Assembly (NCBI GenBank): GCA_964035575.1
Contig: OZ037857.1
Coordinates: 1,488,001 to 1,552,000 of the forward strand
Length of the DNA stretch: 64,000 nucleotides
Origin: Rhynchopus sp. YZ270_cl-10
Lineage: Eukaryota; Euglenozoa; Diplonemea; Diplonemida; Diplonemidae
Direction of reading: 5' to 3'
Shown here: positions 5,671 through 56,322 of the stretch, in pieces
How positions within the stretch are numbered: the first letter of the stretch is position 1
Layout: each line of letters begins with the position of its first letter
Program-made: the position numbers and the translations under genes
The notes under the pieces: model-generated
The model's input: the letters and a program-made list of their open reading frames with translations, nothing else
What the model was told of the DNA's origin: nothing
Databases searched by the model: none

Positions 5671-5710
5671 GGCGACTAAGCACGAGAGGCTTAGGATCAT
5701 CTTATAAACT
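5671..5710 (+). repeat. Hairpin mini-repeat, family 1
   Basis: CTAAG-CACGAGAGG-CTTAG stem-loop followed by ATCATCTTATAAAC and a T-rich run. Close match to copies at 38233, 46148 and 55461. Confidence 0.75.
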
Positions 5711-6090
5711 TTTCTTTTTTTTTTTTTTTTTTCCTGTCTCCTCTGCTCTTTGTTTGGATGAGTGCTGCCCTCTCTGCAAACCACGTCTTGCCTTTTACAA
5801 AGTTAACCACTAGTAGACTTGCCTAGGGCCAGCCGATCGTCGCTAACAACAAACGACAAACAACCTTACCTTCCCCCATCCCCAAACTTTCGCTCTCTTT
5901 TTGGCTCTCTTTTTTTGTTGGTTAGATTTTTTTTTTTTTTTTTTTTGATTGTGTCTTTACATTCGCTGAGGTGTTTTGGCACTGTCATTTTTTTTTTTTT
6001 TACCCCCTGGTGTTAACAACTGTCGGGGACATGTCAAGGACCTGTCAATATGGGCCCTCTCGGGAACACCACCCCCCCTTTTTTTTTCCA

Positions 6091-6131
6091 AGTTGACACA
6101 GAGCACGAGGCTTAGGTTCATCTCATAACAA
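6091..6131 (+). repeat. Hairpin mini-repeat, family 1, divergent
   Basis: Keeps AGCACGAGGCTTAGGTTCAT and then CTCATAAC with a T run, but the 5' half of the stem is altered. Confidence 0.6.
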
Positions 6132-6160
6132 TTTTTTTTTTGAAGAATTTTTGTAAGATA

Positions 6161-6194
6161 CGTGCACAAGAGGCACATTCATCTTTCAAGCGTT
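6161..6194 (+). repeat. Hairpin mini-repeat, family 2
   Basis: GTGC-ACAAGAG-GCAC stem-loop, then ATTCATCTTTCAAG and a T run. Type copy of family 2. Confidence 0.7.
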
Positions 6195-6660
6195 TTTTGT
6201 TTTTTTTTTTCGTTTTCTTTTGTTTTGTTTTGTGTGCATAACTGAGAGCGCTGTTTTATACCCCCCCACCCCCACCCCCTAACACCCAGTAAAACAACAG
6301 CGCTTCCCCCCCACCCTAAGTTATGTCACAAAGCGAAAGTGGATCATCAAACCTTCCCCTTTTTTCCCCTTATTAGGCAGTTCAGATGCAAAAAAAGAGG
6401 AGACTAGCACTGTCCTGTTGTGCGAGGGGCGTTTATTAATGTACAGAAGACAAATCCATGATATTCCTTTATATTTTTTTTAAAAGCCCCAGTAGAAAAT
6501 GACTTCATTTCCCCCCTCCCATAACGATAGAGGAAAAGATGTTGTGTGCACAATGTGGATAGCGAGAGTGCACCGTCTTTCAAAAAAGGTAAGATTCCGT
6601 GCCCGTGGGTTGTTTTTCTTTCTAACTTCTGCCCGACCTTTTGTATAAAACGGGGGCGAA

Positions 6661-6687
6661 AAGGTTAGCTAGAAGGCTTAGCTAACC
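6661..6687 (+). repeat. Perfect 9-bp hairpin
   Basis: AGGTTAGCT and AGCTAACCT flank a 9-nt loop (AGAAGGCTT), followed by a T-rich run. Its 3' half resembles the family 1 repeats. Confidence 0.6.
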
Positions 6688-7254
6688 TGTTTCTTTTTAT
6701 TGTTTTCCCCGCTTTTTCCAACGGTCTTTTGTGGAATAAATAATTTACTCTTAAAAATGTGTGTGTAAGGAATCCTGTGCAGGATATGGGTGATGTCTTT
6801 TTGGCTGTGGGTATCCACACAATAGCTACAATCCAGGACAAAAAAAGTTAGGGAAATTGGGGTTTTATTAGGTGCTTTAGGTCATTTCACGAACATTTTT
6901 TTCTTCTCTCTCTCTCTTTCGTTTTCGTCGTTCTGGAAACTTTCACCCCTTTTATCTCCCCCCATCTTGTTGGTTTTTCTCTGGTTCTTGTTACTCTAAT
7001 AAATCCTTTTCGAGGCGATTCAGGTACTTTCACGTTTTTCTTTCTTTTCTCTTTCGGGGGGTGTGAGCAGCGTCATATCCAGGAATCCAGATTTCAAGAT
7101 TGGCGACCCTACAAAAGACACTGGGTGTGAGGAGTAGGAGGACGCCTAGACTCATAGGACCTGGAGATAAAAGTTGCTGTACAGATATCACAATTTGAAC
7201 AAAAAATTGGTGGATGTGTCCGTCCGTTCGCATTCCATCTATTCAACATTTTGT

Positions 7255-7300
7255 TTCGGTACACTTTCACAGAGAGGGCTTTGTATTTCAAGTTAACCTT
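7255..7300 (+). repeat. Dispersed repeat, family 5
   Basis: Contains GGTACACTTTCACAGAGA and GGGCTTTGTATTTCAAGTTA. Shared with 26030 and 55812. Confidence 0.65.
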
Positions 7301-7420
7301 GTTTTTTCATTTTTCAAATATTCCAGATCCCGGTCAAAACACCGTGTTTATCTCATAGAAAGTGGACTGTTTTTTGAGTGGATCAACACCAAATAAGGAG
7401 AACAAAAAATACGCAAGAAT

Positions 7421-7475
7421 GGTGGAGCGCGGAGCACGCTCTGGGGTGGCTACACTAATACAACCAAGTTTTCAA
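7421..7475 (+). repeat. Dispersed repeat, family 4
   Basis: Starts GGTGGAGCGCGGAGCACGCT, ends CTACACTAATACAACCAAG plus TTTTC and an A run. The same end box recurs at 37821, 50907 and 54118. Confidence 0.75.
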
Positions 7476-7487
7476 AAAAAGCGAAAC

Positions 7488-7556
7488 TATAGTGGATCTC
7501 ATCCTCGGGGCGTGTGTGTGTGTGTGTCTACACTTCTACAAAGCAGGTTTTCAGAA
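7488..7556 (+). repeat. Dispersed repeat, family 4, with GT expansion
   Basis: Starts AGTGGATCTCATCCTCGG, carries a (GT)n run, ends TCTACACTTCTACAAAGCAG and TTTTCAG. Head-to-tail with the copy at 7421, about 70 nt apart. Confidence 0.65.
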
Positions 7557-8189
7557 AAAAGAAAAAGGGAAAAATAACAAAGCGATATTAAAACCATAAC
7601 TCTCGCTCTGGGGGAAAAAATTAACCAATTTTTTTTTATTGGGAACAATGGAAAAACATAAAATCAAAGCAAAAAAGACCAACATATTTGCAAAAAAGGG
7701 TGCACAGCACTGCTCTCTCTCTATTGCAACATATTTTTCAACAAAGAAAAAAAAAATTACCCCCACGCACACACAAAATGCCTAAACTTAAAACAGCCTT
7801 TTTGTCCCCCCTTTTTTTAAATATCCTGATTTTCTAAGCAAAAAAAAAAAAAAAAAAAAACAACAAAAAAACAACAAAAAACAACAAACAAAAAGCGTTT
7901 CTTATCCTTTTATATATCCCAAAAACCACCACAACTACCACCACCACATATATCTCCCCCTCCCTCCAGAAAAAAGGGATACCCTTTTTTACACCCTCCC
8001 TCTCCCCTCTCCCTCTCTATCTCTCTCCCCAATTTTCTTTTTGTTGCAAACACTATCAACAACTCCTTATTCTACTCTACAATGTGTTGAAAACCTGCAC
8101 CAAAAAAAGCACAAAACCCCCCCCAAATCCCTTCTATTAGGGCATTTTAAGGTGTATTCTTGGTTCTTTCATTGATCCCTTTTTTTCTG

Positions 8190-22865: not shown

Positions 22866-22912
22866 AGGTGACTAAGCAAGATGAGACGCTTAGGGTCATC
22901 TTATAATTTTTG
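22866..22912 (+). repeat. Hairpin mini-repeat, family 1
   Basis: AGGTGACTAAGC, a 9-nt loop, then GCTTAG and GGTCATCTTATAAT plus T run. Confidence 0.7.
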
Positions 22913-23210
22913 CTTTTTTCCTTCAAAAAAAAGTGTATCAAATAACCTTCTCTTTAATACATTTTTTTAGCATGCTGGCCTTGGATGTAACAGGGTTACT
23001 ATTTTTGGGGAGAACAGCACTGTTATCCGGTGCATAGGGGAAAATGGTCAAAAAAGAAGAAAAAAAATCAGTCGATATGGAGAAAGGAAGCGAGGTTGGG
23101 TATTTGAACTGTATTTTCATTAAAAAAAAGAGGGGGAAAGGAATGCAAAAAAGAATACTCGAGAGAACGAACAAAAAAAAAGCGCCGAATTTCCCCCCCC
23201 TTTTTTCACT

Positions 23211-23846: not shown

Positions 23847-25949
23847 ATGACCACCAAAAGCGTATCCGAGAAATGGCAGCTCGGCAAAGCATACATGCAG
23901 AAGGGCGACCTGGGGAACGCCATCCAGCTGCTTCACGCAGCCTCGCAGGAGGCCCCTGAACATGCGGGGGTGTGGATGAGCTTTGGACTCGCACTTTGCA
24001 GTGCGGGGGCTGTGGACCAGGGATGCGTTGCGTTTGCGAGGAGCAGGGTATGCAGCGCCGAGGGGGACACTGCTGCAAGCCGCTACACCTCCTCCATGGT
24101 AGCAAACAACCTGCACACCGCTGCGATCAAACACAACCTCTTCCCGACCTCTCTGCTGCAGTACCTTAACGACACCACCCACCGCACAGCGCTCATCACC
24201 GCCCTCTGCAACGCCTGCGACGAGCCCTGCGACGTTCTCCGCATCACCGTGCTCAACCCCTCCGGCGCCGCCCCCGCCATCCTCACGACCCTCCGAGCCC
24301 TCGGAGAGCAGACCCCTGGCCGCTTCTCTCAGCACATCGGAGCAGTTGAACTAACAATACGATTCAATTCGGTTTTAATGCACCACATCGAAGAAACAGT
24401 GGCACCACCTCCAGGGCTTTGGGCAGAGGTGAACGGTGTGAGTCTGGAGGTATACGACAGTCATGAGGAGAGCTCAGATGAGGAAGAGGAAGAGAGGAAG
24501 GGTGTGGTGCGTTGTGCGACCCTGCACGGTGCTGTGTCGTATCCGTTTATGTTGCGGCAAATGAAGGGTGAAGGGGAAATGGTGTTTCCTTCGAACGTCG
24601 CAGTGTACGGCTGCATCGTCAGCTCCACCACCCTCAGGGAGTTAAACTTTGTGGACAGCGCTGCTGTGGAGATGCGTACAGGGATTCAACATATTGAGCA
24701 CATCGAGGCAGGGTTGCATAGTACCTGCCGTTGTGTGCGTGCTGGGTCGCATTCAATTGAGACACATTCTGTTGTTCAAAAACTATCAGATCTTTCAACA
24801 TCTACTGCACTATATGAAATCACCATGGAGCGCGACCTTCCCAACGCAGACGGCATGCTCATATGGGAGTCAACCACACCATGTGACAACATCCCCAACA
24901 GAGGTCTTGCGGATTACCGTTGGGAATATATGTTGTACTTTAAACGGAGGGATTTGGTGGCTGGGGAGAAGGTGGTGATGAAGGTGGTACGTGACCTAGA
25001 GAAACGGCAGATCACAGCGACGGAAGAGGGGGTGGAGTGTGTGGACGCAGTGGATGCGAGGCTGCCTCTCTACCACGCTGCGATGTTGAACGACCACAAC
25101 AGAACTGTGGCGTACAGAGACGGGCTGGCGCAGATCTTCCAGCAAATGGTGGAGGCGACCTCCGCAGAGGAGGCGGCGAAGGCGACGGTGCTGGATCTTG
25201 GATGTGGGACCGGGTTTCTCTCGCTTCTTGCTAGCAAAGCAGGGTTCTCCAATATCACTGCTGTGGAGCGTTTCCCTGAAATCGGCAGAATCGCGGAAAC
25301 GATGTTCAAAAGAAACAACCAAAACGTCAACCTTCTCCTCAAACACAGCGCCGACCTCTCCGTCGGCCCTGACCGCAGCCAAATGCCCGAAAACGTTTCC
25401 CTATTTGTCCACGAAATCTTCGGGACAGACCCACTCTCGGAAGGCCTTCTTGGAGTCTACAACAACCTGGTCCAGCGTAAGGTGGTTACACAACGCACAG
25501 TATGCTGTCCTTCGAACTTCAAAATCAAAGCAGTGTTGATCACTTCCAAGACAATTGCAGAGAGTGTGCACGGTTCTGCGTGTGTCGTGCCAAGGAAGCT
25601 TGAGTTGGATGTGACTCAGGTCAAGGATGTGAAGATGATTTCGGATACAGTAGAAGTATGGGATGTAGCTCTCAACGGAGAACCCATTGCGGCTGCAGGC
25701 GCTAAGGAAGTCTCCTTCAAGGGCAACGGGGAAGAAGCGGAGCCTGCCAGCCTCGTCCTCTACTGGTTTGACTACCTCTGTGGGGCGTCCTGGGATACGA
25801 CAGACCCCTTTGCAGACCACAACGGCGTCGCAAGGACACACTGGCTACACAACGTGGAGGTCTTCACCCACCCAGTGACACCCTCTGATGGGGAATACAA
25901 AGTGCAGATGCGTTGGGCAACAGACAGAGTGATGTTCATGCCTATGTAA
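23847..25949 (+). CDS. Protein arginine methyltransferase, PRMT9-like with N-terminal TPR
   Basis: Transfers methyl groups from AdoMet to protein arginines. One exon, 700 residues; ATG at 23847 sits 14 nt after a strong pyrimidine-AG site. Residues ~8-75 look like tetratricopeptide repeats (KWQLGKAYMQKGDLGNAIQL). A middle region of ~330 residues has an acidic patch (SSDEEEEE) and no recognised fold. The catalytic part starts near 415 with YHAAMLNDHNRTVAYRDG, the MLND..R pattern of PRMT7/9. AdoMet motif I is VLDLGCGTGFLS near 448. The double-E loop is HEIFGTDPLSEG and the THW loop is RTHWLHNVE near 665. TPR plus MLND favours PRMT9, but the double-E wording also recalls PRMT7. Only one catalytic core is evident, where animal PRMT7 and PRMT9 have two half-copies; part of the middle region could be a decayed copy. 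Confidence 0.85.
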   Translation: MTTKSVSEKWQLGKAYMQKGDLGNAIQLLHAASQEAPEHAGVWMSFGLALCSAGAVDQGCVAFARSRVCSAEGDTAASRYTSSMVANNLHTAAIKHNLFPTSLLQYLNDTTHRTALITALCNACDEPCDVLRITVLNPSGAAPAILTTLRALGEQTPGRFSQHIGAVELTIRFNSVLMHHIEETVAPPPGLWAEVNGVSLEVYDSHEESSDEEEEERKGVVRCATLHGAVSYPFMLRQMKGEGEMVFPSNVAVYGCIVSSTTLRELNFVDSAAVEMRTGIQHIEHIEAGLHSTCRCVRAGSHSIETHSVVQKLSDLSTSTALYEITMERDLPNADGMLIWESTTPCDNIPNRGLADYRWEYMLYFKRRDLVAGEKVVMKVVRDLEKRQITATEEGVECVDAVDARLPLYHAAMLNDHNRTVAYRDGLAQIFQQMVEATSAEEAAKATVLDLGCGTGFLSLLASKAGFSNITAVERFPEIGRIAETMFKRNNQNVNLLLKHSADLSVGPDRSQMPENVSLFVHEIFGTDPLSEGLLGVYNNLVQRKVVTQRTVCCPSNFKIKAVLITSKTIAESVHGSACVVPRKLELDVTQVKDVKMISDTVEVWDVALNGEPIAAAGAKEVSFKGNGEEAEPASLVLYWFDYLCGASWDTTDPFADHNGVARTHWLHNVEVFTHPVTPSDGEYKVQMRWATDRVMFMPM

Positions 25950-26029
25950 GTTATATTTCAGATAAACCACGAAATGGATTGTAGGACTGCATGATTGGGT
26001 GCCCACCCCCCGGTACAGCCGGTGTACCA

Positions 26030-26072
26030 AGGTACACTGTTCACGAGAGGGCTTTGTATTTTTTAACCCTAC
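26030..26072 (+). repeat. Dispersed repeat, family 5
   Basis: AGGTACACTGTTCACGAGAG then GGCTTTGTATTTTTTAACC. Preceded by a GGTACA/TGTACC mini-hairpin. Confidence 0.65.
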
Positions 26073-26249
26073 TTTTTTTTATCATCGTTTTATCGGAAAA
26101 AAAATTCAATAAAATTGGATGGGAATCTCTGGTCTTCTTCTATCATATTTTCCAAAAAAAAAGTTATTTCAACTTTGTATACCCCTCATGACCTCCACCC
26201 CCCCACCCTCTATCCCATCCCAAAAACCCTCCAAAAGAACACAATAAAA

Positions 26250-29200
26250 ATGACCGATTTTCCAAGAGAGGCACAACGTCTCCTTAAACGGGTTCCAGAG
26301 GGGTATACGAATAAGGGTTCTAGTAGTGTCGTGGATTTGGTGAGCACTTTGGTTGCAAATGCTCAGGGCGGGAAGACACAGAAGCTGGACGAGCTGAAGG
26401 CGCTGTCTGTCGAGCTCTCAGAACTTGAGCAGGACTTTGTCGCTACACACAACTCTGCGTGCAATCGGTCTATGGAGCAGTTTATGCGTCTCCTCAACGA
26501 CCTAGACCAGGCGAAGGGCATGGTTGGCGACCTTAAGACCAAGATTCTCCGTCTCAGACGCTCCATGGGTTCATACACACCAGACCTCGTTGCGTTGTAT
26601 AAGCGCAGACAGCGGAATGCGTATTTACTGCAAATCTTGCACGCCATCCAGCAGATCCAATCCATGGACGCCAAGAAGAACGTTCTGTTGCAGCAGAAGA
26701 GCTTTTTGCAGTGTGCGAATTTGATGCGTTCGAATCAACGTCTTTTAGAGCAGTGGCCGGTGATAAGGGATTCGACGTCTCATAGGATTGATCTGGCTGC
26801 GGTGCACTCACGGCTGCAGAAGCTTTTATCTTACGAAGCTTTGACGCAGTTTGTCACTTCGGTGAACTCTGTTTTGTTGCATTCTGCGATGCGCCGCCAG
26901 CATGTGGGCAGCACAGCGAAGTTTGCTGCCGTCATGGAACGCGGTCTGGCTGGGTCTGGTGGAAGCACCTCCGCCGCAATCGCACCGCACACCACCGCCA
27001 CCCGCCAACCCCAATCGGGAGCCTGCAACATAACCATCCGCACCTCCCTCACAACCGACCTCGAGAAGGCACCCCTCCACGAATGCACACGCCTCTGGGA
27101 GAACGACACCCCCATCCTCTCCACCCCTTCCGTCGAGCTCCTTGGTGGCATTCTCCTCCGTGGCCCTGTTGTCATCCCCGCGAAGACCACTGTCTCCGCA
27201 TCCTGCCCACAACGCTTCACCATGATCCTTGGTCTACACACCGGAAGAGAAGGAGGCATCCAACTAGCCAGCTCTCCCTCATGGACCAGCAGCACCGCAA
27301 GCGGTGTTGTTCTCGGGGACTGCGATGAATGTGTCGAGAAGTCCTTTATGGGCGCAAATGGAAGCTTTGACAGCACACAGCACCATGGCGACACACAGGA
27401 CGAACTGCATTTCTACCAGCGAAGCGTTGCTGCAGGAGAAACCGCACACTTCCCGATCCCCCCAACGGACGCATCCTATGTCATCATGGTTGTCGTACCG
27501 CACACTACATCCAAAGAAGAGATGGTGCGCATGCAGTGTCTCTCCTCCCTTCATGTCGTCGGTGGTGTCGGCACCGTCAAATCCTCTCTAAACCAACGCC
27601 TTCTCGAGGTTGTCAGCAAGCTTCTCCAACGAGACGCACTCAGAAAGGAATGTGATGCGTATCTGGAAGCCTTTTTGAAGGCATTCGACATATGGGGTAC
27701 GTCCTACCAAAAGAAGGTGCCAGAGACGGAAATTGAGGTCTTCAACTCTACGCAGATTCTGTCCAGGCAGAGAGACTCAACTGCGTTTGTCTCCACGACT
27801 AAGAAGGGCCACGCAGAACACATGGAGGAACCGGTGCACGCAGTGTTTGAGTACAATCGTGACATTGCGTGTCTGCAGTCGCCCCTCCTCCGGCAGTTCT
27901 GCTGTGCGCTGTACGGCGAGCTGCTAGAAGTGTTGCAAAGCTTCTGTGACATAAAACGGCGGACATCCGCACTATGCTTCCCACTAGAGAACGGTCAGTA
28001 CGTTGAAGGGCGGGTTCTGCTTGACGAAGAGGATTTGATGCTTATCTCCAAAGAACTGCTACACATGATCGACCAAGCCCCGCAACAAGACTCCGACTGC
28101 GAAGACGCGATGAAGGTCGCTAAGAGAGCAGTCGAACTTCTCCACGCACCCCCAAACACACCACGCAGCCAGGCACCCTTCGCGATCCAACACATTGTAG
28201 GCACACGACGTGCAGGCTGGCTGGGTCTCCCACCTCGCAAACACTTTACGGTTACCATTAAAATCCCTGAAAATTTTTTTGCACCCCTTGGAGTAGTCTT
28301 CGACGATGCTATGCGTATCATAAAGGTAAATGATGGGAGCATATTTGGTGCTTTAGGGGAATATGTCGGGAGTGTCCTTATGTACGCAACCCTCCCAAAC
28401 GAAACACGTGTCACAATGCTGTCCAAAGAAGACCTGTTAGACGCCATCTCTGGCGTGCGTAGCATTGACCTCCACCTCTACCGCAAAGTCCTTTCCCCTC
28501 TTGTAGGTGCCTTAGAAGTCATGAACCAAATCTCGAATGCATGCATCGAGGCTGGTAGGGAGCTTTCCGTGGCAGAAGAGCACATCATCTCTGCGGAGGA
28601 ATCGCTACACGACTCCGCCTCGCAAGCAATGGAGGAGCTGTCCAAACAGTTTTCCAAGAAGAACGGCGGCGGGCTGTCACTAAAGGACACCTGGGAGGCT
28701 TTGCAGGATGTGTTGGCACCGCTTCTTAAAAGCTTGTGTTCGAACTCCTTTTGCAGCGCAGGGTATGACGGGGTCGACTGTGCACAGAGTGTGCACAATG
28801 CACAGAATGATGAAGCATACACCGCAACGACGTTAGAGAAGCTGTTAAGCAACCGTGGTGCAAGCCGTCTGCCCCGTCTTCTCGAAGGCGCGCCGACAGT
28901 GAAGTTCAGCATCTCCTCCGTTGATGAAACGGCAAAGACCGCAGAGGAAAGCAACATATCGCAACACCTCGTCAGCACGCCGTACAACACCATTGCTCTG
29001 TACAGACTCACCGTGCAGTTTGAGGTGGATGCGCGCAAGATTTTACAAGAAAAAACGTTCGCACGATCCCTCGAGTCTTTCATTGAGGAGACTGCGACGA
29101 ACGACATGCTCCCTGCACTAAGAGCGCACTACTTCCAACTGGTTACCGACGCGATGGCTAACGTTAACCCCATTGGCATCACTGACGCTTCGCCTGGGGA

Positions 29201-35315: not shown

Positions 35316-36795
35316 ATGTCAAACCCTATTGAGTCGAACTGGGGAGGAAGACAAAACCGTCCGAGCAGGGGGGTATGTTCACAGATTTTTTTTTTTAATA
35401 TATAAACTCCAGGGCGTTCGCTATCGCCATCGTTTTTTCCTGATCGTGGCGAAATGCCAAAAACCCCGAAATTTTCGTTTTTTTACTAGTGCTTAAAATA
35501 GGTCAAAAAAAATTTTCCCGCCGGAGAGAAGTTAGTTCGTGGGGTGAATCCCTGGTACTGAATGGTCAAAAAAAATTTGCGATTTGCGCGTGATCCCTTC
35601 CCCAGCACAAGTGATATTACAGCTGAACTTTCCTGATACTAAAACCAGCAAAACGATGGAGAATTTCATCAATCCCCCCTCACTGAGGGTCTCTTTGTGT
35701 TGTTTAATCAAACAGATGTACAAGAGAGGCATCTGTCATATGAGACTTCATCCTTATTTTGATTATTTTCAACTCTCTGCCGTTGAAAGTAGAGTTGACA
35801 CGAGCAGTGACACCTTCTATAACAGGGGGTACGGTACACCTTCAGCAGACTGCAGGATTGAGGAGCGAGCGGGAGTGCTGGGGAAACTTCCTCTCACGGC
35901 AGGCGGGTTTGCGGATGATTTTGAGTACAGTGGACACCCCTCTACGACCCCCCCTCCGGGGGGGTCTACAGGGTGGTGGGGAGAAATCTCTCTCTCTCTT
36001 TTTTTTTTTTTTTTCCCCCTTTTTTTATTTATTTATTTATTTATACAGGGTTTCGCCCCGGTGGGGCGAAGCCCTGGGGCGAAATAAAATGTCATTTTTT
36101 CAGGAAAAGATTTTTTTAACGAAAAAAAATATTTTTCGCCCCGGGGCGAACGCCCTGATAAACTCCCAAATTCTTGGCAATCAGAAATGGACAACAGATT
36201 GCTCTTTCAACTTTTCTTTCAGTGCCTGCGTCCCAGAGGCGTTTTGCATTGTCAAATTCAGTTCTGTTTGTATTTGGTATATTTTTGTTCAATATTTTCT
36301 GTTCTCCTGCGTCTCATACCACTTTCCAAACCCTACAGTCTGGCAGGGACTCACCCCGATTTGACAGCGTCAAGAACGCTGGAAGCAAGGTCGCAGACGT
36401 AGCCGGCAATGCAGGCCGGTCACTCAAGGATACCTGCTGCTCGCCAGAGGTCAAGGAGGAGCTCAGCAAGCTTATCACGGTATGTCCCACCTTCCCCCCC
36501 CCCCTTTTTTTTTACGGCCTTTTGTGGACACCCACCACTGTGCCCTAGGCATGCATGGCATGTGTTTCTTGGATCACTGTGTCGTCATTTAAGCAAAACA
36601 CCCACTACACAGTATACCGCTACGATCATCATTGCGCTGGCGTGGTGGGAGATGCTCAGTGTAGGAATCTTCTACCGGATTATCGGACCCGAGCTGTGGT
36701 GGATGTGGGTTGTGTCCGTGATCGTGATCATCCTGGCGATGGTGGTGTGCTGGTTTACAGGGGAGTCTCTCGCATTCGGGGAAGATTGTTGTTGA
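35316..36795 (+). CDS. Small two-helix membrane protein, 3 exons
   Basis: Not recognised. Exons 35316-35372, 36339-36479 and 36613-36795 join in phase 0 to give 126 residues. Both donors read GTATGT and acceptors are CCCTACAG and CTACACAG. The protein starts MSNPIESNWGGRQNRPSRG, continues with a polar, partly amphipathic segment (SVKNAGSKVADVAGNAGRSL), and has two hydrophobic helices in exon 3: TATIIIALAWWEMLSVGIFY and a Trp/Val-rich one (LWWMWVVSVIVIILAMVVCW), then GESLAFGEDCC. The C-terminal CC could be lipidated. TTTTGCAG ends 8 nt before the ATG. Intron 1 is 966 nt because it contains the hAT-like element at 35410-36157. Confidence 0.7.
35410..36157. mobile_element. Non-autonomous hAT-like DNA transposon in an intron
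   Basis: Ends are perfect 12-bp inverted repeats, CAGGGCGTTCGC at 35410-35421 and GCGAACGCCCTG at 36146-36157. They are flanked by an exact 8-bp target duplication, ATAAACTC, at 35402-35409 and 36158-36165. CAGGG ends with an 8-bp duplication are the hallmark of hAT elements. The 748-bp interior has no transposase. It contains extra palindromes made of the same end motif (CAGGGTTTCGCCCC and GGGGCGAAGCCCTG near 36046-36080), a C/G palindrome near 35950 and a TTTA microsatellite near 36020. It lies wholly in intron 1 of the small membrane-protein gene, so splicing would remove it. Confidence 0.85.
36221..36265 (+). repeat. Dispersed repeat, family 3
   Basis: AGTGCCTGCGTCCCAGAGGC then GTTTTGCATTGTCAAATTCA and T-rich sequence. 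Lies in intron 1 of the small membrane-protein gene. Confidence 0.7.
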
Positions 36796-37872: not shown

Positions 37873-38232
37873 CAAAAAATGAAAATGAAAGTACTCCGCG
37901 GGGAAAGAGTGTATCGAGTGGGCATATCTTGTTTACCACGCAGGGATTTTCAAACAGTTCAAAACTCCCTGCCATTGAGGTGCTTTTGCTAGCCGCCTCA
38001 AAACGTGTACCGACATAGTCATTCCAATTTTTCTCTTTCTCATTATTGTGCTTTCATCCGGATGGCTGGCATCGTACATGGGTCAGTCGGAGGTGTCTGC
38101 ATCAACCACAGTTTCTCATGAACACAACACCCCCACCATCGACTCCTTTTCTCTTGACTTCTATGGGATTCTGGAGAAAAAAAGCGGCTATTGTAGGTGT
38201 GTTGAATGAATCTATTTTGCGACAAATGTCTT

Positions 38233-38274
38233 TGTGACTAAGCACGAGAGGCTTAGGTGCATCTCATAAGCTAT
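38233..38274 (+). repeat. Hairpin mini-repeat, family 1
   Basis: CTAAGC at 38238-38243, loop ACGAGAG, GCTTAG at 38251-38256, then GTGCATCTCATAAG and a T-rich run. Confidence 0.75.
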
Positions 38275-38737
38275 TCTTTGCATGTCTTTTTGTGTGTGTG
38301 TGTGTTTTGGTGAGTAGCATAAAAAAGCTAAATTGCCCTTTTTTTTCTTCTCCCTTTTCGCTTAAGTGCGAAGTTTCCGTAAGAACGGAACACAAAGGGG
38401 AACCAAAAGGGCAAAAAGAAACATGCTGAACAGAATAACACTTTTGCGCGCGGTAAAGCCATTCGCAAAAAATCCCCCCTCCAAAAAAAACTGGCGGAGT
38501 TTTCTGTTAGCAAACCCACACCCCGCCACCCCCGTTCCCTACCCTGTTCAAATTCTTTTTTTTTTTGTTTTCTATTCCAAAAAACTGAACGAAATCCTAG
38601 TGAGTAACACAAAAAAAAACGACAGATTTTTTTCTTCCAATCAACACATCTTCGTCTTTCATCACCTTTCACTCAGAGGGGCGTCTTACTTTTCCCGTCA
38701 CCCCACCCCACCCCACCCTCCACACCCAATACACAAA

Positions 38738-43651: not shown

Positions 43652-44596
43652 TCGCGCACTCCTTCTATTATGATTGTTACCACCTTTCACCACAGCTCCG
43701 CTGTGAACATCTAACGGACGTTTCTCTTCACAAGGGAAGTGCAGTGTTGTGCTTTCCCCCTTACGTCTTTGCTCTCTTCCACCCCTCTTATCATTTTATA
43801 GCAACTTTCTATTTTGTTTCCGTTTTTTGGACACAGACAAAATCCACATACGCACACCGCTAAATAGAGCCAATGCACGTTTTTGTACGCCACAGTGTTA
43901 ACCGATTCGCGATTTTCTTGCTTGTTATCAACTGGGCTTTATTTTCTTGTTGAAAACTAGCCGGAATAGTGCGGTCGGTGCTATTGAGGTGTTCTCTTTT
44001 GTTGTTGATACGTGTTTTGGCGTTAAGGTGTGCGAGGTTTTTGGTACATTCACTTTTTTTTATATGTACGAAAAGCTTCACCTCTTTACATTCCCCTTTC
44101 GACACTTCGCAGGAACCTGCCCTGTGCATGCGTCCACACCTTTTCCTTCGACGCCCTGCGTTCGTTGAATCCTCTTTATTCATTCTTCCCAAAATTATTG
44201 ATGGGTGGCGAGAGCACCGTCAAGTTTTCTGTTCTTTTTTTTACTATTCTTTTTTAACCATGTATTGCGAGACATCGAGGGGGAGAGTGAGAAGGTTCCA
44301 CCTAGTTTGTGGTTTTGTTTACGATGATCTGTGGGTATGTCAAATGGCTGAGACGGTGTGGGTGCTTTTGTTGTTTAGTGGAGACTCTTCGGAGGCTTTG
44401 CAAAGTATGTTCATTTGCTCATCACATACTCAGGTGTGTCAAAGGCAAAAGCCGAATCCATCGGTTTCCCCCGCAGGGTCAACGGAAAGAACGCCGCAAA
44501 ATATGTGCAAAATAAGTTAATCGGCTCATAAGGAAAACAAAGCCCCCCTCAGCTTCAATAAGAAAGGAATCAAATCCATACATTTTTTTAAAGATG

Positions 44597-44632
44597 TGTA
44601 TGCCCATGAGCATGTTCATCTTTCAACTTTTC
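44597..44632 (+). repeat. Hairpin mini-repeat, family 2
   Basis: TATGCCCATGAGCATG stem-loop, then TTCATCTTTCAACTTTTC. The stem bases differ from 6161 but still pair. Confidence 0.65.
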
Positions 44633-44647: not shown

Positions 44648-44686
44648 TAGGTGGCCAAGAGGCTTCGATGGGCTCATCTTACAAAA
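44648..44686 (+). repeat. Hairpin mini-repeat, family 1-like
   Basis: AGGTGGCCAAGAGGCTTCGA then TGGGCTCATCTTACA and an A run; GGCC/GGGCT partial stem. Confidence 0.45.
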
Positions 44687-44742
44687 AAAACTTCCAACAA
44701 TTCTTCAACAACGAAAAAAAAAAATTTTTTTTTTTTTGACGA

Positions 44743-45615: not shown

Positions 45616-45834
45616 TCCCCCCCCCCCATATTCCTGGGTCCCTTTTTATTGCCTTTGAATTCAAAAATAACAAATGTTTGGGGTAATGTTTTTGTTTTGC
45701 TTGTTTGTGAGGGTGGGGACTTTGTTTGTAAAGTTTACCACCCTTTCTAACGTTCAATTTTTATTCCCCATTTTATGGTACCCTGTTTTTTTCTTTTGCG
45801 CGTTCCAGAAATAAGGTATCTTTTAATTTTGTTG

Positions 45835-45875
45835 ATGTGTGCACGAGAGTCGCACACTTTCTTCACCTTTTCAAT
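45835..45875 (+). repeat. Hairpin mini-repeat, family 2-like
   Basis: GTGC-ACGAGAGTC-GCAC stem-loop followed by a CT-rich tract. Confidence 0.5.
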
Positions 45876-46147: not shown

Positions 46148-46188
46148 TAGGTGGCTAAGCAACGGGAGGCTTAGGTTCATCTTCGATT
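46148..46188 (+). repeat. Hairpin mini-repeat, family 1
   Basis: AGGTGGCTAAGC, loop AACGGGAG, GCTTAG, then GTTCATCTTCG. Confidence 0.75.
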
Positions 46189-46209
46189 TTTTGTATACTT
46201 CATAATATT

Positions 46210-46361: not shown

Positions 46362-46380
46362 TATTATGATGAAATACTTG

Positions 46381-46414
46381 CATACTTACTGTCTTTGCTA
46401 AAGTAGTAAGTATG
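46381..46414. repeat. 10-bp hairpin
   Basis: CATACTTACT and AGTAAGTATG flank an inner CTTT/AAAG stem. Confidence 0.75.
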
Positions 46415-48528: not shown

Positions 48529-48614
48529 ACTGGTCATGCACCTTGTCATGTCATGTCACTTTACATGTAAAGTACATGTAAAAAAAGTTACATGGAAAGC
48601 ACATGTAAAAGCGC

Positions 48615-48999
48615 ATGTCATGTCATGTCATGTCATGTCATGTCATGTCATGTCATGTCATGTCATGTCATGTCATGTCATGTCATGTCATGTCATGTCA
48701 TGTCATGTCATGTCATGTCATGTCATGTCATGTCATGTCATGTCATGTCATGTCATGTCATGTCATGTCATGTCATGTCATGTCATGTCATGTCATGTCA
48801 TGTCATGTCATGTCATGTCATGTCATGTCATGTCATGTCATGTCATGTCATGTCATGTCATGTCATGTCATGTCATGTCATGTCATGTCATGTCATGTCA
48901 TGTCATGTCATGTCATGTCATGTCATGTCATGTCATGTCATGTCATGTCATGTCATGTCATGTCATGTCATGTCATGTCATGTCATGTCATGTCATGTC
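48615..48999. repeat. Tandem array of about 77 TGTCA pentamers
   Basis: Uninterrupted, perfect 5-bp repeat over ~385 bp. Because 5 and 3 are coprime it is open in all three + frames as repeating MSCHV, so the frames here are artefacts. Imperfect copies (TTGTCATGTCATGTCAC, ACATGTAAAG) lie just upstream and may be the seed. Confidence 0.97.
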
Positions 49000-49909
49000 A
49001 TTTTACTTCACCGTCGTGTATACTCCGGACATGGATACCCACACAGAATACACGGTTACCCAGACATCTGTCAGGCAATCACTGATTCACATTAACACAG
49101 GTCGGGCAGGTGCTGCCTGCCCATCCTCTTTTTCCTGTCTGCTATCGATTCCAGGTTCACAAGGGATACACAAAACCACACAAAGCGCGATCGCGCTTCT
49201 TCGGCAACGTGTCGAAATCAGTGCGTCACACGGCCCTGAGCCCCTCTAAGCCAGTGATGGCCGCAGACGTGTATGCGTCTGCGGACGCTGCAGGTTTTCT
49301 CTTAGTGGCTAAGCCAGGGGACCTGAGGGTTCAACACCGTTGGGACGCATTGAGAGGGCGGGAAGTGTCGGGGACACTGTATGGGCGGTTCTACGCCAAG
49401 TCCGCTCAAAAACCCTTGTAGACGCGGTGGAATGACAGTAAAGGCAAAGCGCCCCATCCACTAGTGGGCCTGCCGAAGGTGTCCTCATTGGTGATGGGAG
49501 ACTGGGTCTAGGAAACCGAGAAAAGGCGACGTGTGGTGTATTAGGTGCCCGCATGCAAATGTGGACTCTGAAGAAGTATTTTCATCATAAGAAGATAAAG
49601 AAGACGAGGCACATGCGGGGGCAGTGCTTTAGTCGAGTCTACGACCGTGTCTAGTGCAGGGCTATTGTAGACTGAGCTGCAAGACCAAGGGTAGGAATTG
49701 GGCATTGCCATCTCTGAAAGTCATACGAGGTGTTTTTTTTTCAAAGGGAGGGACCGGGTGAGGCAGTGACGGCAGATCTGCTCCATCATTTACGCCAGAA
49801 TAATTTCCCTTAACTTTGATCACTCCCCGACCCATTGATGGGCACCTAAGCGCATGACATTGGTCACTACGATCCAAATACGGACTAAAGGTGACCACGT
49901 TGTCTTGGT
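49000..49909. other. Moderately GC-rich stretch, unidentified
   Basis: A + frame from 49110 to 49421 has a stretch ADVYASADAAGFLLVAKPGD that looks protein-like but is not recognised. Given the retroelement-like segment downstream, this may be part of the same decayed element. Confidence 0.25.
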
Positions 49910-50600
49910 TTGGCTGTATGCAAACACAATTACCCTACACAATGCCTGGGTACCAAAGCCCGCCTGCCCTGGGACAAGGCTGCGGACACCCCGTCACTTT
50001 CCGTGGACTTTGACTGGAGCCGGCTCCCCTTGAGGGCGCCTTCGTCGTGGAAATACGGCCCTGAGCGACACACTGCTTTTCTTGCGTGGCTGAGGTCTCT
50101 GGAATTCGTTGAGGACAGCAACAGTTGCATCAGCAACATTGAGCTGGGTATTAGCTTTGGGGTATACTCAGGCATCTCGCTGCGACAGTGCAAACAGGTC
50201 GCCCATGCCCTTTCTGTGCGTGAGCGGGGGAAGGTGATGTCCCTCTGGCTTCGATGGTTCCGGAAGCACTGCACCGAGAACAAGCTGGACTGCCCCGTTC
50301 CCGGAGAGAAAGTGACGATGGTGCACTGCCTACGGCCTATCGGTGCACCTCCGGTCTGGTGGGCACACTCCACGTGCCAAACTCTGCGCCGGCAGCATTG
50401 CCACTATCCTGAAGTACCTGACGAGGTCCATCAGTTCCCTGTCCGACCGTGACTGGGGCACCTGCCCCCTCCCCGCCTACGACACCACCATCACTGCGCG
50501 TGCCGCTCAGTGGACCTCGCCCCGACGACGCCTGCGTAACAATACCGCCACCCCTGCCACCCCTACAAGCCTTGTGCGACGGGGAACGCCAAGGTAGCGC
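49910..50600 (+). mobile_element. Fossil retroelement segment, class uncertain
   Basis: The + frames include a Trp-rich stretch typical of sequence after reverse transcriptase in protist retroelements: FLAWLRSLEFVED, then IELGISFGVYSGISLR and a SLWLRWFRKHC helix. The element is broken and incomplete; no polymerase core or end repeats were found. LINE and tyrosine-recombinase-type elements are both possible. Confidence 0.35.
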
Positions 50601-50906
50601 ATCACCATCGTGTCCCCTCCCGTTCTACCAGAACCTGAGCCGCCTGCACTGCCTGATACAGTGCCCGACAAACCGCCCTGAGCCTGGCCCCACCGCCCCA
50701 AAAGGGCGTCAATCAAGAAGAAAACGCTCAACTTCCCCCGAGCATGAAACGAGAATAAAGCGGACTAGAACCGCCCACCCACAACGTCTGCTTCGCCCCC
50801 ATGTGATGATGGACCGGTGGGGAGCAACCTTAGCGTCATCAGTGCGACATCTCCCACACAGGAGATATCATCAGCGTGTTCATCAGCGGTTACTTAACAG
50901 CGTTTT

Positions 50907-50962
50907 GAAAAGTGGAGTTCATCCTCGGGTGTCCACACTAAGACAACCCAGTTTTCAATATA
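50907..50962 (+). repeat. Dispersed repeat, family 4
   Basis: AAAGTGGAGTTCATCCTCGG then GTGTCCACACTAAGACAACC and CAGTTTTCAA. Confidence 0.7.
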
Positions 50963-51480
50963 AAAAACAGAACACCGGGGAGAGGAGCAAGGTAGCGCTG
51001 CCGCCTCGTGGCAAACTGGTTAGTGCTTTCGCACCGTTCACACTTGTACTGAATATGCGAGACGTCTTCCCAGTTGCACGTCACGTCGATAAAATCCAGC
51101 GCCGAGTTGTACGCACTCCCGATGCTGGACACCATAGTGTTCTCCTGTATGCAGCTGTCAGATGGCGCATGATAGCAAGTAGTAACGCTGCAAACACAAA
51201 AACACCTCCATTTGGAGTTCCGGTAAGCCCCAATTGCATAGGGGGGTTCGGGGGGCGAAGCCCCCCGGCGATTTTTTTTGGCCTGAAATTTGCCTTTGCC
51301 AAAATCAAAAATGAGTTTTGTGAAGGGATTTGCTAAGGAAAACACCCAATAATAGGCCACTGTAGCAGTGCATATGATTCACCCACAGATGCTCAAAACA
51401 TCAAAATTTTGCCGTTTTTTGAATTTTTCGGTGCACAAGGTCCCAAGGTCAGGCCCAAAAAAAAAATTTTTTTTTCCAGG

Positions 51481-51561
51481 CTTGAAAAAGTAGTTGTCGA
51501 AAAAAAAAAATTTTTTTTTTTTTTTTTTTGAAATTTTTTTCTCGACATCTACTTTTCCAAG
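51481..51561. repeat. Long A/T-rich hairpin
   Basis: CTTGAAAAAGTAGTTGTCGA pairs with TCGACATCTACTTTTCCAAG across a long A-run/T-run centre. Confidence 0.65.
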
Positions 51562-51744
51562 CTTGGAAAAAAAACTGATATTTACTGGTATCAACTGGTA
51601 TTAACTGAGATTTGACGTAGCCTCCAGAATATTTTTTTTTCTTCACTTCACTCCAACCACAGAAGCCCCTTTCCAAAATCACCTTTTTGCATTTTTAAAG
51701 GGTAGAATCTTGACACAAAACCATTTTTTTTTTTTTGATGAACC

Positions 51745-53974: not shown

Positions 53975-54648
53975 TATCAAATAGGGAGGGAGGGAGGGGG
54001 GCTGGGTGTTCTCCTAATGGGTTCGCAAAAGGGGAGCGGGGAGGGGGGGGGGTAGGTGATACAGTGCAGTACGTCCTTTGGATGGAAACACTAAATACAG
54101 AGAAATAAAGAAAGTATAGTGAAGCACACTCTAAGGCTACACTAATACAACCAAGTTTTCGAGAAAGGAAACTGTCCAGAAAAAGGGGGAGGGGGAAAAG
54201 GAAGAGAAGAAAAAGAGTACGCGTTTTTATTTTGTGTGTGTACCTGAGTGTGGGGATGCGTTCAAGAATTAAACTCTTCCCCCCAAACCCCCTTTTTCGT
54301 CTTTGTTTTCTTTATTCAAACGGCAAGTGGATGCGTAATAATTTTATTTTTTTTGCGTCAAAAAGGCAAAGTGATTTGCCCTGAAACTGTGTAGTATTAT
54401 CTCTTTTTTTCTATTTTTTTCTCTTTCCCCCCCTCTTTTTTTCCTCTTTCTTTCGGCTCGGCGTATCAGGGAAGAACTGCGGCATCTATGGAGAGTGGGT
54501 ATATCATACCCCACATGACCATGTTTTTTTTTGTTTTTTTGTTTTTTGTTTTTTGCCCAGTTCTACCTACGCATCATCTTACATTCATCCACACTACTCC
54601 CTTCTCCCTTCCCCATTCCCCCGCCGCTTTCAGTATACCATCCTTTAA
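53975..54648. other. Spacer after cyclase gene
   Basis: No gene. G-run and T-run sequence, one family 4 repeat, and a TTTTTTG/TTTTTG repeat near 54525-54555. Confidence 0.5.
54118..54165 (+). repeat. Dispersed repeat, family 4
   Basis: TAGTGAAGCACACTCTAAGG then CTACACTAATACAACCAAG and TTTTCGAG. Confidence 0.75.
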
Positions 54649-54688
54649 GATGACTAAGCACTAGAGGCCTAGGCTCATTTTATAAAAC
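54649..54688 (+). repeat. Hairpin mini-repeat, family 1
   Basis: AGATGACTAAGC, loop ACTAGAG, GCCTAG, then GCTCATTTTATAAAAC. Confidence 0.7.
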
Positions 54689-54755
54689 GTTTTCTTTATG
54701 GGGACATTTTTATTGATCCCTCCTCCTATGCTGTCAATTTATTGATTGCATATTG

Positions 54756-55081
54756 GTACAGTCCATAAACCCCCTCACCTAAAAGGTAACCTTTTGAATT
54801 TTTTTTGCACATTAGATAACATCCATTCCACTCGGACTTTTTGCTCGATTTTTCCTCCTGTGACCTCAGAAACGCCATTCTGAGTTCAAAGGAGCAAAAA
54901 TCGAGCAAAATGTCCGAATGGAAGTTATTTCATTTACACATAAGTACAAAAGGTTACCTTTTACAGTGGTTAAAGAAAGTTTACGCCTAAACTAATGGCG
55001 GAATTGAAATCGATGGCGGAAATTACTTTAGGCGGAACTTTCTTTAACCACTGTAGGGGGGGGAGGTTTATGGACTGTGCC
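54756..55081. mobile_element. Fold-back element able to form a three-way junction
   Basis: Outer arms GTACAGTCCATAAAC (from 54756) and GTTTATGGACTGTG (to 55081) pair. Inside lie two independent hairpins in series. Arms 54776-54860 pair with 54886-54962; both contain GGTAACCTTTT- or GGTTACCTTTT-type ends and a CGGAC...GCTCGATTTT / AAAATCGAGC...GTCCG stem. The second is the unit at 54962-55055. No coding capacity. It looks like a small transposon that received a second insertion. Confidence 0.75.
54962..55055. mobile_element. Nested 90-bp Tc1/mariner-type MITE
   Basis: Bounded by TACAGTGGTTAAAGAAAGTT and its complement AACTTTCTTTAACCACTGTA. The CAGTGG ends and TA flanks are typical of Tc1/mariner mini-elements. 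The stem continues as TACGCCTAAA/TTTAGGCGGA. Confidence 0.65.
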
Positions 55082-55152
55082 ATCACGTTGAAATACTTTA
55101 TTTTGACAGATGCTTTATGACACAACATATCCATCTTTTTTATGTTTTCTCA

Positions 55153-55192
55153 AAGTGACCAAATACCCGAGACATGGTTCATCTCACCAACC
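55153..55192 (+). repeat. Hairpin mini-repeat, family 1, divergent
   Basis: AGTGACCAAATACCCGAGAC then ATGGTTCATCTCACC. Confidence 0.5.
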
Positions 55193-55208
55193 CCCTTTTT
55201 TTTTTTAT

Positions 55209-55243
55209 GTGTCCGAAAGGCACATTCGTCTTTCAAATTTTCT
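55209..55243 (+). repeat. Hairpin mini-repeat, family 2
   Basis: ATGTGTCCGAAAGGCACATT then CGTCTTTCAAATTTTC; GTGTC/GGCAC stem. Confidence 0.65.
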
Positions 55244-55247
55244 CTTT

Positions 55248-55292
55248 GGTGACTCAAGAGATGAGAGGCTTTTAGGCCATCTCTTTTAACGT
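55248..55292 (+). repeat. Hairpin mini-repeat, family 1-like
   Basis: GGTGACTCAAGAGATGAGAG then GCTTTTAGGCCATCTCTTTT. Confidence 0.5.
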
Positions 55293-55352
55293 TTCTCTTT
55301 GTATTTTTTTTATATATTTTTATACACTTCAGGGTTCGACAACCCGCGGAGT

Positions 55353-55404
55353 GTCAGTGCCTGCATCCCAAGAGGTGTTTTTGCACTATCAACCTCACTT
55401 TTTT
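55353..55404 (+). repeat. Dispersed repeat, family 3
   Basis: CAGTGCCTGCATCCCAAGAG then TTTTTGCACTATCAACCTCA and CTTTTTT. Confidence 0.7.
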
Positions 55405-55460
55405 TCCTCTCCGCTGCAGTCCTACGGTTTGCGTGCAGGATAATTTTTTTTTTCTTTTTA

Positions 55461-55505
55461 AGGTGACTAAGCACGAGAGGCTTAGGTTCATCTTATAAAC
55501 TTTTC
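55461..55505 (+). repeat. Hairpin mini-repeat, family 1, best copy
   Basis: AGGTGACTAAGC, loop ACGAGAG, GCTTAG, then GTTCATCTTATAAACTTTTC and a T run. Used here as the family reference. Confidence 0.8.
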
Positions 55506-55708
55506 TTTTTTTCGTTTTGTCTCCCCCTCTCCCTCCCTTTCCACCCCTCTCTGGAAAATAATAAATCCGTACAATCGACTTTGAGAACGAAACCTTTATT
55601 TTGATTTTTTTTTAAAATCAAAAACTGAAGTAGAACAAAATACTTAAAGACTTCCCCTGCCGCCTACTACTACCTTTTCCCCATCATTTTACTCTTCTTC
55701 ATGTTCAG

Positions 55709-55750
55709 ATGTGTTGTGCCCGTGAGGGCTCATCTCGTTCAATTTCCCCC
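55709..55750 (+). repeat. Hairpin mini-repeat, family 2
   Basis: GTTGTGCCCGTGAGGGCTCA then TCTCGTTCAATTT; GCCC/GGGC stem. Confidence 0.6.
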
Positions 55751-55759
55751 TATTTTTTG

Positions 55760-55798
55760 ATGTGTGTGTAGAGACGCATTCATCTACAAGTTTTCTCT
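55760..55798 (+). repeat. Hairpin mini-repeat, family 2
   Basis: TGTGTGTGTAGAGACGCATT then CATCTACAAGTTTTC; TGTGT/ACGCA stem with G-T pairs. Confidence 0.55.
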
Positions 55799-55811
55799 CT
55801 TTTTTTTGCTT

Positions 55812-55852
55812 CAGGTACATTGCCACGAGAGGGCTTTGTGTTCAAGTCATTT
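55812..55852 (+). repeat. Dispersed repeat, family 5
   Basis: CAGGTACATTGCCACGAGAG then GGCTTTGTGTTCAAGTCAT. Confidence 0.65.
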
Positions 55853-56285
55853 TTATGCCATTTTCCACAACCTTCTTTCACCTACAGGGTAACCGAAGGT
55901 GAAGGGAAGAGTATTGAAATCGATAAATCGTCCAATTTTCAACACCAACCCCATCACTGCACGGGCGGATCCTAATGCAGGATCTTTTTATTTGTTCCCT
56001 TTGAAATGTGTAAGTTCAGGTTTCAATCGATCCTACAGGGGTTGAAGGAAGGTGTGTGGAAAAAAACAACAACACCACAACTAATTACTAAGCTGTGGAA
56101 AACGCTCGACCCACTCCCGCCGTTCCTGCAATACAGTGGGACAAGAATCATGGGGAGGTGTAAAAGGGATAAAAACTAAGATGTATATTGGCATTTTCAA
56201 ACTCTAAGGAGGGTTTTCCCTCCAATATATTAGACTACTGCAACTTCCTTATCCACATAACATTTTCTTGACGTCACCTTATTTT

Positions 56286-56322
56286 GGGTGCACAAGAGAA
56301 CTTGATGCTCATCTTACTGACT
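56286..56322 (+). repeat. Hairpin mini-repeat, family 2-like
   Basis: GGGTGCACAAGAGAACTTGA then TGCTCATCTTACTG. Confidence 0.5.

Follow-up and report, generated by a model that had tools for sequence, protein, structure and literature searches.

Co-oriented hairpin mini-repeats in a diplonemid genome very probably represent 3' ends of LINE retrotransposons

Introduction

Why should short hairpin repeats, scattered along a chromosome, all read in the same direction as the genes around them? The question is raised by a 64,000-nt stretch of the genome of the diplonemid Rhynchopus sp. YZ270_cl-10 (contig OZ037857.1, positions 1,488,001 to 1,552,000; hereafter the window), which is part of contig 25 in a genome assembly of 126 contigs and 152.4 Mb. 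An original prediction, made from the window alone, described two families of co-oriented stem-loops there and offered three explanations: Pol III-like ends of short interspersed elements (SINEs), RNA-processing hairpins in a polycistronic transcript, or 3'-end signals. We present evidence that these mini-repeats are very probably the 3'-terminal recognition hairpins of diplonemid endonuclease-type long interspersed elements (LINEs), together with non-autonomous elements that carry a similar hairpin. Since family 1 lies at the end of an intact LINE reading frame, 'SINE ends' comes closest of the three options: the repeats do appear to be retrotransposon 3' ends, and it is the Pol III part that found no support, with neither a tRNA gene (ARAGORN) nor an Rfam match in the window, where A and B boxes were sought by eye only.

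Results

Repeat families and their architecture

The repeat families are real, chance being excluded by genome-wide counts with zero matches in the reversed controls. The core of family 1 (F1) occurs in at least 1978 forward and at least 1904 reverse copies (at least 3,882) with up to one mismatch, and family 2 (F2) in at least 631 and at least 519 (at least 1,150) with up to three; at the latter tolerance F3, a family absent from the original prediction, gave at least 440 and at least 497 copies per strand. All of these counts are lower bounds, and the F1, F2 and F3 places used below are the first 100 or fewer listed of the larger totals. Ungapped scans of a 264-kb sample (the window and 20 further stretches of 10 kb) found 39 copies at an identity of at least 0.65, whereas the reversed controls got no higher than the 0.6 bin. 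The exact 22-base F1 pattern had no match in bacterial and archaeal genome contigs. Structure alone, as used in loose descriptor scans and a generic two-stem scan, failed to tell signal from chance.

F1 is laid out as TAAGGTGA CTAAGC ACGAGAG GCTTAG GN TCATCTTA, followed by TAAACTTTTCTTTT, forming two stems and, on its 3' side, a bulge of two bases. The outer stem, overlooked earlier, pairs TAAGGTGA with TCATCTTA in F1 and AAGATG with CATCTT in F2. Both F2 and F3 follow the F1 plan with other stems, the ACGAGAG loop and the T-rich tail being common to all three. F3 and a further module, F4, are the two families in the window that had been overlooked.

Family 1 as the end of LINE-A

F1 is the 3'-terminal hairpin of an endonuclease-type LINE, which we call LINE-A. 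Two F1 copies on contig 1 have 169 bp in common at 97% identity, including the end of an open reading frame (ORF), and a search for LINE-A tails with the 35 residues of that ORF end returned 302 candidates, of which 150 were scored and all 150 matched. Among the matches listed, 18 copies carry the tail on an open frame 1462 aa long, and these same frames also give matches to reverse transcriptase. In the locus L046 the frame (208-4593) contains both an endonuclease domain (Exo_endo_phos, PF03372, 1.8e-13) and a reverse-transcriptase domain (RVT_1, PF00078, 2e-24), and it matches LINE-1 ORF2 chains at 1e-18. The GGTGA of the hairpin starts there 12 nt past the stop codon, with a T-rich run after the hairpin; the segment 4602-4648 folds into a stable 3'-terminal stem-loop (-16.2 kcal/mol, z -5.0). 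The linkage is not peculiar to L046: 19 of 100 listed F1 variants lie within 300 nt of a LINE-A tail, with GGTGA exactly 16 nt past the last codon in 19/19. Among named proteins, the closest to the LINE-A reverse transcriptase are from Diplonema papillatum, mostly with 43-50% identity over the matched part.

Two further features of the frame may be recorded. An in-frame upstream stretch (L046 1-207) closes with TGA just ahead of the 1462-aa frame, and the frame has an HPHPGP motif near its start, which we take to resemble a degenerate 2A-type signal.

LINE-B, F3 and other reverse-transcriptase elements

A second LINE, LINE-B, is represented by protein P0003 (54% identical in the reverse transcriptase) and by 15 copies with a 1476-aa frame among the matches listed. 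Remnants of its C-terminus (window 57202-57290 and L025) lead into F4, which reads AGTGCCTGCGTCCCAGAGACATTTGTACTATCAACTTCACTTTTTT in the window; F4 is the module following the LINE-B ORF, that is, the LINE-B 3' end. Its outer stem is AGTGC/GTACT in the window copy at 57295 and AGTGC/GCACT in other copies, and the copy at 55356 has, by eye, CATC/GGTG where others have CGTC/GGCG. Elsewhere in the window, 50075-50356 holds an ORF remnant resembling the C-terminal part of this genome's LINEs (P0003 3e-5; LINE-A 0.046).

F3 resembles a SINE; it measures about 125 nt and has a defined 5' start, TCAGATGTAAACC, and an F3 copy had no Rfam match at E up to 1. As a candidate SINE partner it has the ACGAGAG loop and T-rich tail in common with F1, a similarity that falls short of an identical tail. 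Of about 14 other open-frame length classes, 9 were examined (L048-L055 by loop scan, L047 by reading) and none showed an F1-type hairpin, although the L051 and L052 stretches open with a frame of only 62-69 aa, so that the element end may have been missed there. The L047 element ends in a poly(A) tail.

Copies in the window

The copies in the window, all on the + strand, are as follows.

5667..5731, +, F1 module, hairpin-only stub of the LINE-A 3' end (92% to L046 4605-4669; fold z -4.0)
6098..6141, +, F1 module, diverged (83% to the LINE-A 3' end)
6156..6198, +, F2 module, inner stem GTGC/GCAC, outer AAGAT/ATCTT (0.84; z -1.2)
7258..7301, +, F3, 3' hairpin part only (89%)
22866..22919, +, F1 module with altered loop (81% to the LINE-A 3' end)
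25958..26061, +, nearly complete SINE-like element F3 (85% to the L032 copy), downstream of a gene that ends at 25949 and ahead of a Sec8-like gene called from 26250
36221..36268, +, F4 module (LINE-B 3' end), stub within a T-rich tract (sequence comparison, fold)
38234..38279, +, F1 module (87% to the LINE-A 3' end)
44590..44632, +, F2 module, inner stem ATGC/GCAT, outer AAAGATG/CATCTTT (z -3.6; not in the 0.62-identity list)
44648..44700, +, F1-like degenerate copy (by eye only; below the 0.62-identity scan)
45833..45875, +, F2 module (0.74 identity in scan)
46148..46190, +, F1 module, loop 1 nt longer (seen in the window sequence and scans)
54647..54695, +, F1 module (0.80 identity in scan)
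55153..55195, +, F1-like degenerate copy (by eye only; below the 0.62-identity scan)
55203..55245, +, F2 module (0.77 identity in scan)
55248..55300, +, F1-like degenerate copy (by eye only; below the 0.62-identity scan)
55324..55400, +, F4 module (55356) with an upstream hairpin of the LINE-B 3' untranslated region (UTR), GGGTTCGACAACCC (sequence comparison)
55459..55517, +, F1 module, near-intact stub (95% to LINE-A; 1.0 to the F1 scan string; z -4.4)
55709..55800, +, two F2-like degenerate copies (55709, 55760; by eye only; below the 0.62-identity scan)
55813..55862, +, F3, 3' hairpin part, diverged (81%)
56286..56325, +, F2-like degenerate copy (by eye only; below the 0.62-identity scan)
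57202..57290, +, LINE-B ORF C-terminus remnant SQGWGNDCVPAYSSPVN (85% DNA identity to L025)
57295..57345, +, F4 module closing the LINE-B remnant (sequence comparison)

The seven clear F1 copies had been placed correctly: five align to the LINE-A 3' end (46-65 nt aligned, 81-95%), and those at 46148 and 54649 appear in the scans. The three weak ones (44648, 55153, 55248) are visible by eye as degenerate traces and fail the 0.62 scan. For F2, the copies at 6161, 45835 and 55209 pass that scan and the one at 44597 folds well (z -3.6); 55709, 55760 and 56286 were seen by eye only. No antisense module match was found in the window at an identity of at least 0.62.

Other features of the window bear on the modules less directly. 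The near-complete F3 fills about a third of the 300-nt gap (25950-26250) before the Sec8-like gene, and its T-rich tail may add to the splice acceptor region. Another repeat, TGTCGGGGACATGTCAAGGACCTGTCAATATGGG, lies at about 6030-6085 (+) and about 57900-57950 (-), by eye and with rough coordinates; its opposite orientations are a possible contrast to the hairpin modules. A perfect CATGT pentamer array (77.6 copies, 100%) occupies 48614-49001, and an ORF at 57669-58997 contains an exostosin GT47 domain (6.1e-10).

Most F1 copies are hairpin-only stubs

Most F1 copies are stubs of about 50 bp that start at the 5' base of the hairpin. The exact match to LINE-A upstream of AAGG extends over 0-2 nt in 29/35 copies and over 8, 10, 10, 120, 131 and 135 nt in the others. 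By BLAST, 27 of 41 alignments start at L046 4603-4610, 6 inside the hairpin and 8 upstream (4424, 4476, 4487 twice, 4585 in two diverged copies, 4597 and 4599), two of the latter having been chosen by their tail. The sets behind these figures and the stem changes below are partly selected, with 20 loci from a contig-1 core search and L042 and L043 from the LINE-tail search; L015 overlaps L014 and was therefore omitted from the F1 counts. The 5' flanks of the stubs are mostly unrelated to each other, save that L004, L019 and the window copy at 38232 have another repeat there in common. Because the 5' ends mostly lie at the hairpin base, and are not spread as random reverse-transcription drop-off would leave them, a hairpin-sized RNA template fits better. 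In LINE-A copies themselves, 5' truncation is variable.

The stubs sit in T-rich surroundings. A T-run precedes 62% of F1 stubs against 21% of nearby positions (p <0.0002), 69% against 21% for F2, and 40% against 14% for F3 (p 0.04). T-rich direct repeats flank, by eye, 4/4 truncated LINE-A copies: TTTCAT in L003, TTTGTTTT in L042, and bare T runs in L008 and L043.

Orientation follows transcription

Gene calls in the window are all on the + strand, save one weak call at 63089-63451, and the claim that the repeats read with the genes held well beyond it. At an identity of at least 0.65, and with F4 left out, 39/39 copies in 12 loci with gene calls lie on the gene strand (15 F1, 12 F2, 12 F3). 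Genome-wide, the strand given by the nearest listed marker was matched by F3 in 31/31 cases, F1 in 38/39 and LINE-A tails in 63/64, against 21/36 for other reverse-transcriptase elements; this test required a marker within 150 kb, which was available for 31 of 100 F3, 39 of 81 F1 (100 listed minus 19 beside LINE tails), 64 of 150 LINE-A and 36 of 123 other elements (150 rows minus 27 of the LINE-A family). Both misses, one F1 and one LINE-A, are more than 120 kb from their marker. LINE-B, in the first 65 listed rows, agreed in 28/28 cases with a marker within 200 kb. The original prediction had named an even genome-wide split between strands, combined with a lack of excess compensatory changes and of nearby transcript ends, as evidence against it. 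By chromosome strand the split is indeed even (1978 versus 1904), yet the copies follow the local strand of transcription.

With markers and LINE-A tails pooled (506 places), 99 contigs have listed places. The order in 97 of them is consistent with a single minus block and then a single plus block, and 65 of the 97 show both, which suggests that each chromosome has one divergent strand switch. Additional switches occur on contigs 1 and 2. At 1.30 Mb on contig 1 (L023), genes and modules are both + between flanking minus blocks, an arrangement more easily explained by transcription than by a single replication origin.

Spliced leaders in this genome were searched with a pattern built on the euglenozoan spliced leader; it gave 742 matches at up to three mismatches and one in the reversed control. 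The genes lie in small clusters with a spacing of about 420-740 nt, on both strands (contig 1, about 1.39-1.50 Mb, and elsewhere). One published entry, 'Euglenozoa 14', is presumably Diplonema. The spliced-leader gene in L041, aaccaacgatttctaaagctacagtttctgtacttcattg/gt, is close to that entry, which reads AACCAACGATTTAAAAGCTACAGTTTCTGTACTTTATTG in the available part of the table (PMC3795323). Together with the Diplonema papillatum relatives of the reverse transcriptase, this leader points to a diplonemid.

Stems change between families and decay within them

The original prediction held that stem bases change while pairing is kept. Between families this is borne out: in 29 copies of F1 and F2 (F3 left out), 99/145 stem cells are paired, against 83.4 (sd 4.4) with shuffled 3' arms and a best of 100 in 5000 shuffles. 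Within F1 (p 0.19) and within F2 (p 0.17) the excess is not significant. Across 36 F1 copies, a set partly selected for an intact core, one-sided stem changes keep 17 pairs and break 36, and two-sided changes keep 1 and break 3; the 12 listed F2 copies comprise 7 with TGTGC/GCACA, 1 wobble, 1 compensatory (TATGC/GCATA) and 3 with broken pairs. Three of seven window folds clearly beat their shuffles (5666, z -4.0; 55457, z -4.4; 44589, z -3.6), and four did not (6151, z -1.2; 36221, z -1.1; 57295, z -0.7; 26025, z -0.5). Compensatory changes within one family thus did not mark either F1 or F2 as a cis-regulatory RNA element, and since the stems covary between families and not detectably within them, a function of each copy is unsupported. 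Stem differences between families are what evolving masters would be expected to produce; the copies decay afterwards.

Discussion

Our results can be drawn together in a rough proposal for how the modules arise. The reverse transcriptase would bind the hairpin chiefly through its loop, and at a T-rich tract the endonuclease would nick the template strand, which is A-rich. The RNA tail, being rich in U, could then anneal at the nick and be copied by target-primed reverse transcription, leaving short T-rich target-site duplications. Most events would copy only a hairpin-sized RNA, giving a stub of about 50 bp with its 5' end at the hairpin base, and insertion would take place almost only in the direction of transcription, most likely through coupling to it. 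Inserted copies would drift without a function of their own, although their T-rich tails may incidentally act as pyrimidine tracts in trans-splicing.

Several observations weigh against parts of this proposal. We found neither a parent for F2 nor a LINE ending in F3 when LINE-B coordinates were compared by eye with the listed F2 and F3 places. The 5' ends are not strictly two-peaked, as two diverged F1 copies start 22 nt upstream of the hairpin base, and those of F4 are, by eye, even less sharp. Upstream T content itself is not significant for F3 (p 0.11), a permutation test for target duplications at stubs was weak (p 0.02), and two of the four LINE-A duplications (L008, L043) are the bare T runs. 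With markers up to 400 kb away LINE-B agrees in 32/34 cases. Among the 3-kb contig-1 loci there is one antisense F2 hit (L009) at 0.70, above the reversed-control range and with no clear loop, and antisense F1 hits in L001 and L004 at 0.63, within that range. Finally, the asymmetry of target tracts predicts only about 53-60% sense copies, and the transcription-coupled step is reached by elimination.

What else could the repeats be? If they were processing or 3'-end signals of a polycistronic transcript (for cleavage, polyadenylation or as a trans-splicing guide), their sense orientation in 39/39 sampled copies would follow at once, and many copies do precede a T-rich tract like the pyrimidine tract of trans-splicing. 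Signals of this kind would be expected about once per gene, whereas, of the 16 window gaps of over 100 nt that separate called genes, 10 are free of listed modules and the remaining 6 hold 1 to 5, and the distance from the upstream called gene ranges from 74 to 7275 nt. The stem changes in F1 mostly break pairs, F1 is the end of a mobile element, and LINE-A and LINE-B obey the same strand rule, all of which makes this explanation very unlikely and leaves two of the three original suggestions, RNA-processing hairpins and 3'-end signals, without support. Still less credible are near-palindromic DNA transposons with terminal inverted repeats, similar to miniature inverted-repeat transposable elements. 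F1 is indeed a long inverted repeat (TTATAAGGTGA ... TCATCTTATAA), but one end runs into a LINE ORF in the tail-bearing copies and the strand bias is near-absolute; for F1 the linkage to the ORF refutes the idea, the 5' end being variable and only the 3' end fixed. By eye we also considered and dropped an origin from tRNA or a B box, derivation from the spliced-leader RNA (L041), and introner-like elements, for which the F1 start AAG/GTGACT resembles a 5' splice site, yet the copies lie between called genes.

A variant compatible with a LINE origin is that the stubs are independent hairpin-only SINEs, made from a dedicated small RNA, about 50 nt long, which would be mobilised in trans by LINE-A. 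We consider this a serious possibility, somewhat short of an even one: the 5' ends are concentrated at the hairpin base and F3 is an example of a separate element whose 5' end is defined, but no separate source gene or promoter was identified, and a protected fragment of LINE-A RNA would yield the same 5' end. An abundant RNA starting at AAGGUGAC would support a hairpin-only template. The strand rule, taken by itself, might also result from selection, with insertion on random strands and purging of antisense copies that disturb polycistronic transcripts. Leishmania SIDERs, sense-biased in gene clusters in the available part of PMC2689281, offer a precedent. However, antisense insertions as such are tolerated, given that other reverse-transcriptase elements are sense in only 21/36 cases, and the rule is also obeyed in the LINE-A and LINE-B lists, where many copies are 94-100% identical to the query tails; we regard selection, the main rival here, as rather unlikely. 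Pure targeting of T tracts was rejected as the cause of the rule, the difference between free T and A tracts of at least 7 on the coding strand (365 versus 320; pyrimidine versus purine tracts of at least 12, 328 versus 215) being too small. Because that strand has T and A tracts in about equal number, transcription-coupled insertion is the likeliest cause, and we favour it by elimination.

A bolder formulation can be offered only tentatively. A diplonemid LINE clade may insert only along polycistronic transcription, target-primed reverse transcription being transcription-coupled. A hairpin RNA of about 50 nt alone might be a sufficient replicating unit, bounded by the hairpin that the reverse transcriptase binds and perhaps among the smallest retroposons. 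On every chromosome the insertions would then trace out how transcription runs, and they would supply T-rich tracts usable by trans-splicing.

A LINE recognition hairpin, its loop constant and its stems changing, is available here in thousands of natural copies from a protist. Near-absolute co-orientation, near-symmetric target tracts and unoriented other reverse-transcriptase elements together make the coupling of LINE insertion to transcription directly testable. Module copies alone outline transcription units (97/99 contigs), and annotators of such genomes should mask them and not read them as conserved regulatory RNAs.

Among known systems, the SIDERs of Leishmania and the ingi elements reportedly have a 5' signature (Pr77, or 79-bp) in common; here the common part is instead the 3' hairpin. 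In the available part of PMC2689281, SIDERs and the trypanosomatid ingi-L1Tc group resemble our modules in forming thousands of short degenerate remnants between co-transcribed euglenozoan genes, mostly sense in clusters. SIDERs in 3' UTRs are described there as exclusively sense, and in gene clusters sense copies outnumber antisense ones about 4-fold; in the stretch from poly(A) site to splice site it is the antisense copies that prevail, by more than 3-fold, in contrast to the 97-100% sense seen here. For human L1 in genes, orientation relative to transcription is likewise ascribed to the insertion process in the accessible portion of PMC5717806, but the bias is against sense and is attributed to transcription-coupled repair, whereas ours favours sense and is nearly complete. 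For Diplonema papillatum, the excerpted text of PMC10161547 reports LINE-like ORFs in abundance as well as dispersed repeats, and it is from this species that the named proteins nearest to the LINE-A reverse transcriptase come; within the sections consulted of two open-access diplonemid papers (PMC10161547, PMC12621601), no report of the hairpins, the stubs or the strand rule was found.

The closest parallel is with stringent-type LINEs and their partner SINEs (zebrafish ZfL2-1 and ZfL2-2, eel UnaL2), which, as far as the available sections of PMC4176376 go, have a 3' stem-loop ending an endonuclease/reverse-transcriptase LINE, a constant loop with a changeable stem, and a short element with a similar 3' end. 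For the zebrafish LINE, the same sections describe its own loop as critical and its stem as replaceable with part of the activity kept. Unlike those elements, the ones described here are diplonemid, have T-rich tails and flanks, consist in F1 mostly of stubs, and lie nearly always on the strand of transcription. Stringent-type LINE tails are the known part of this system; what is new is the diplonemid LINE group itself, along with stubs reduced to the hairpin and the near-absolute co-orientation.

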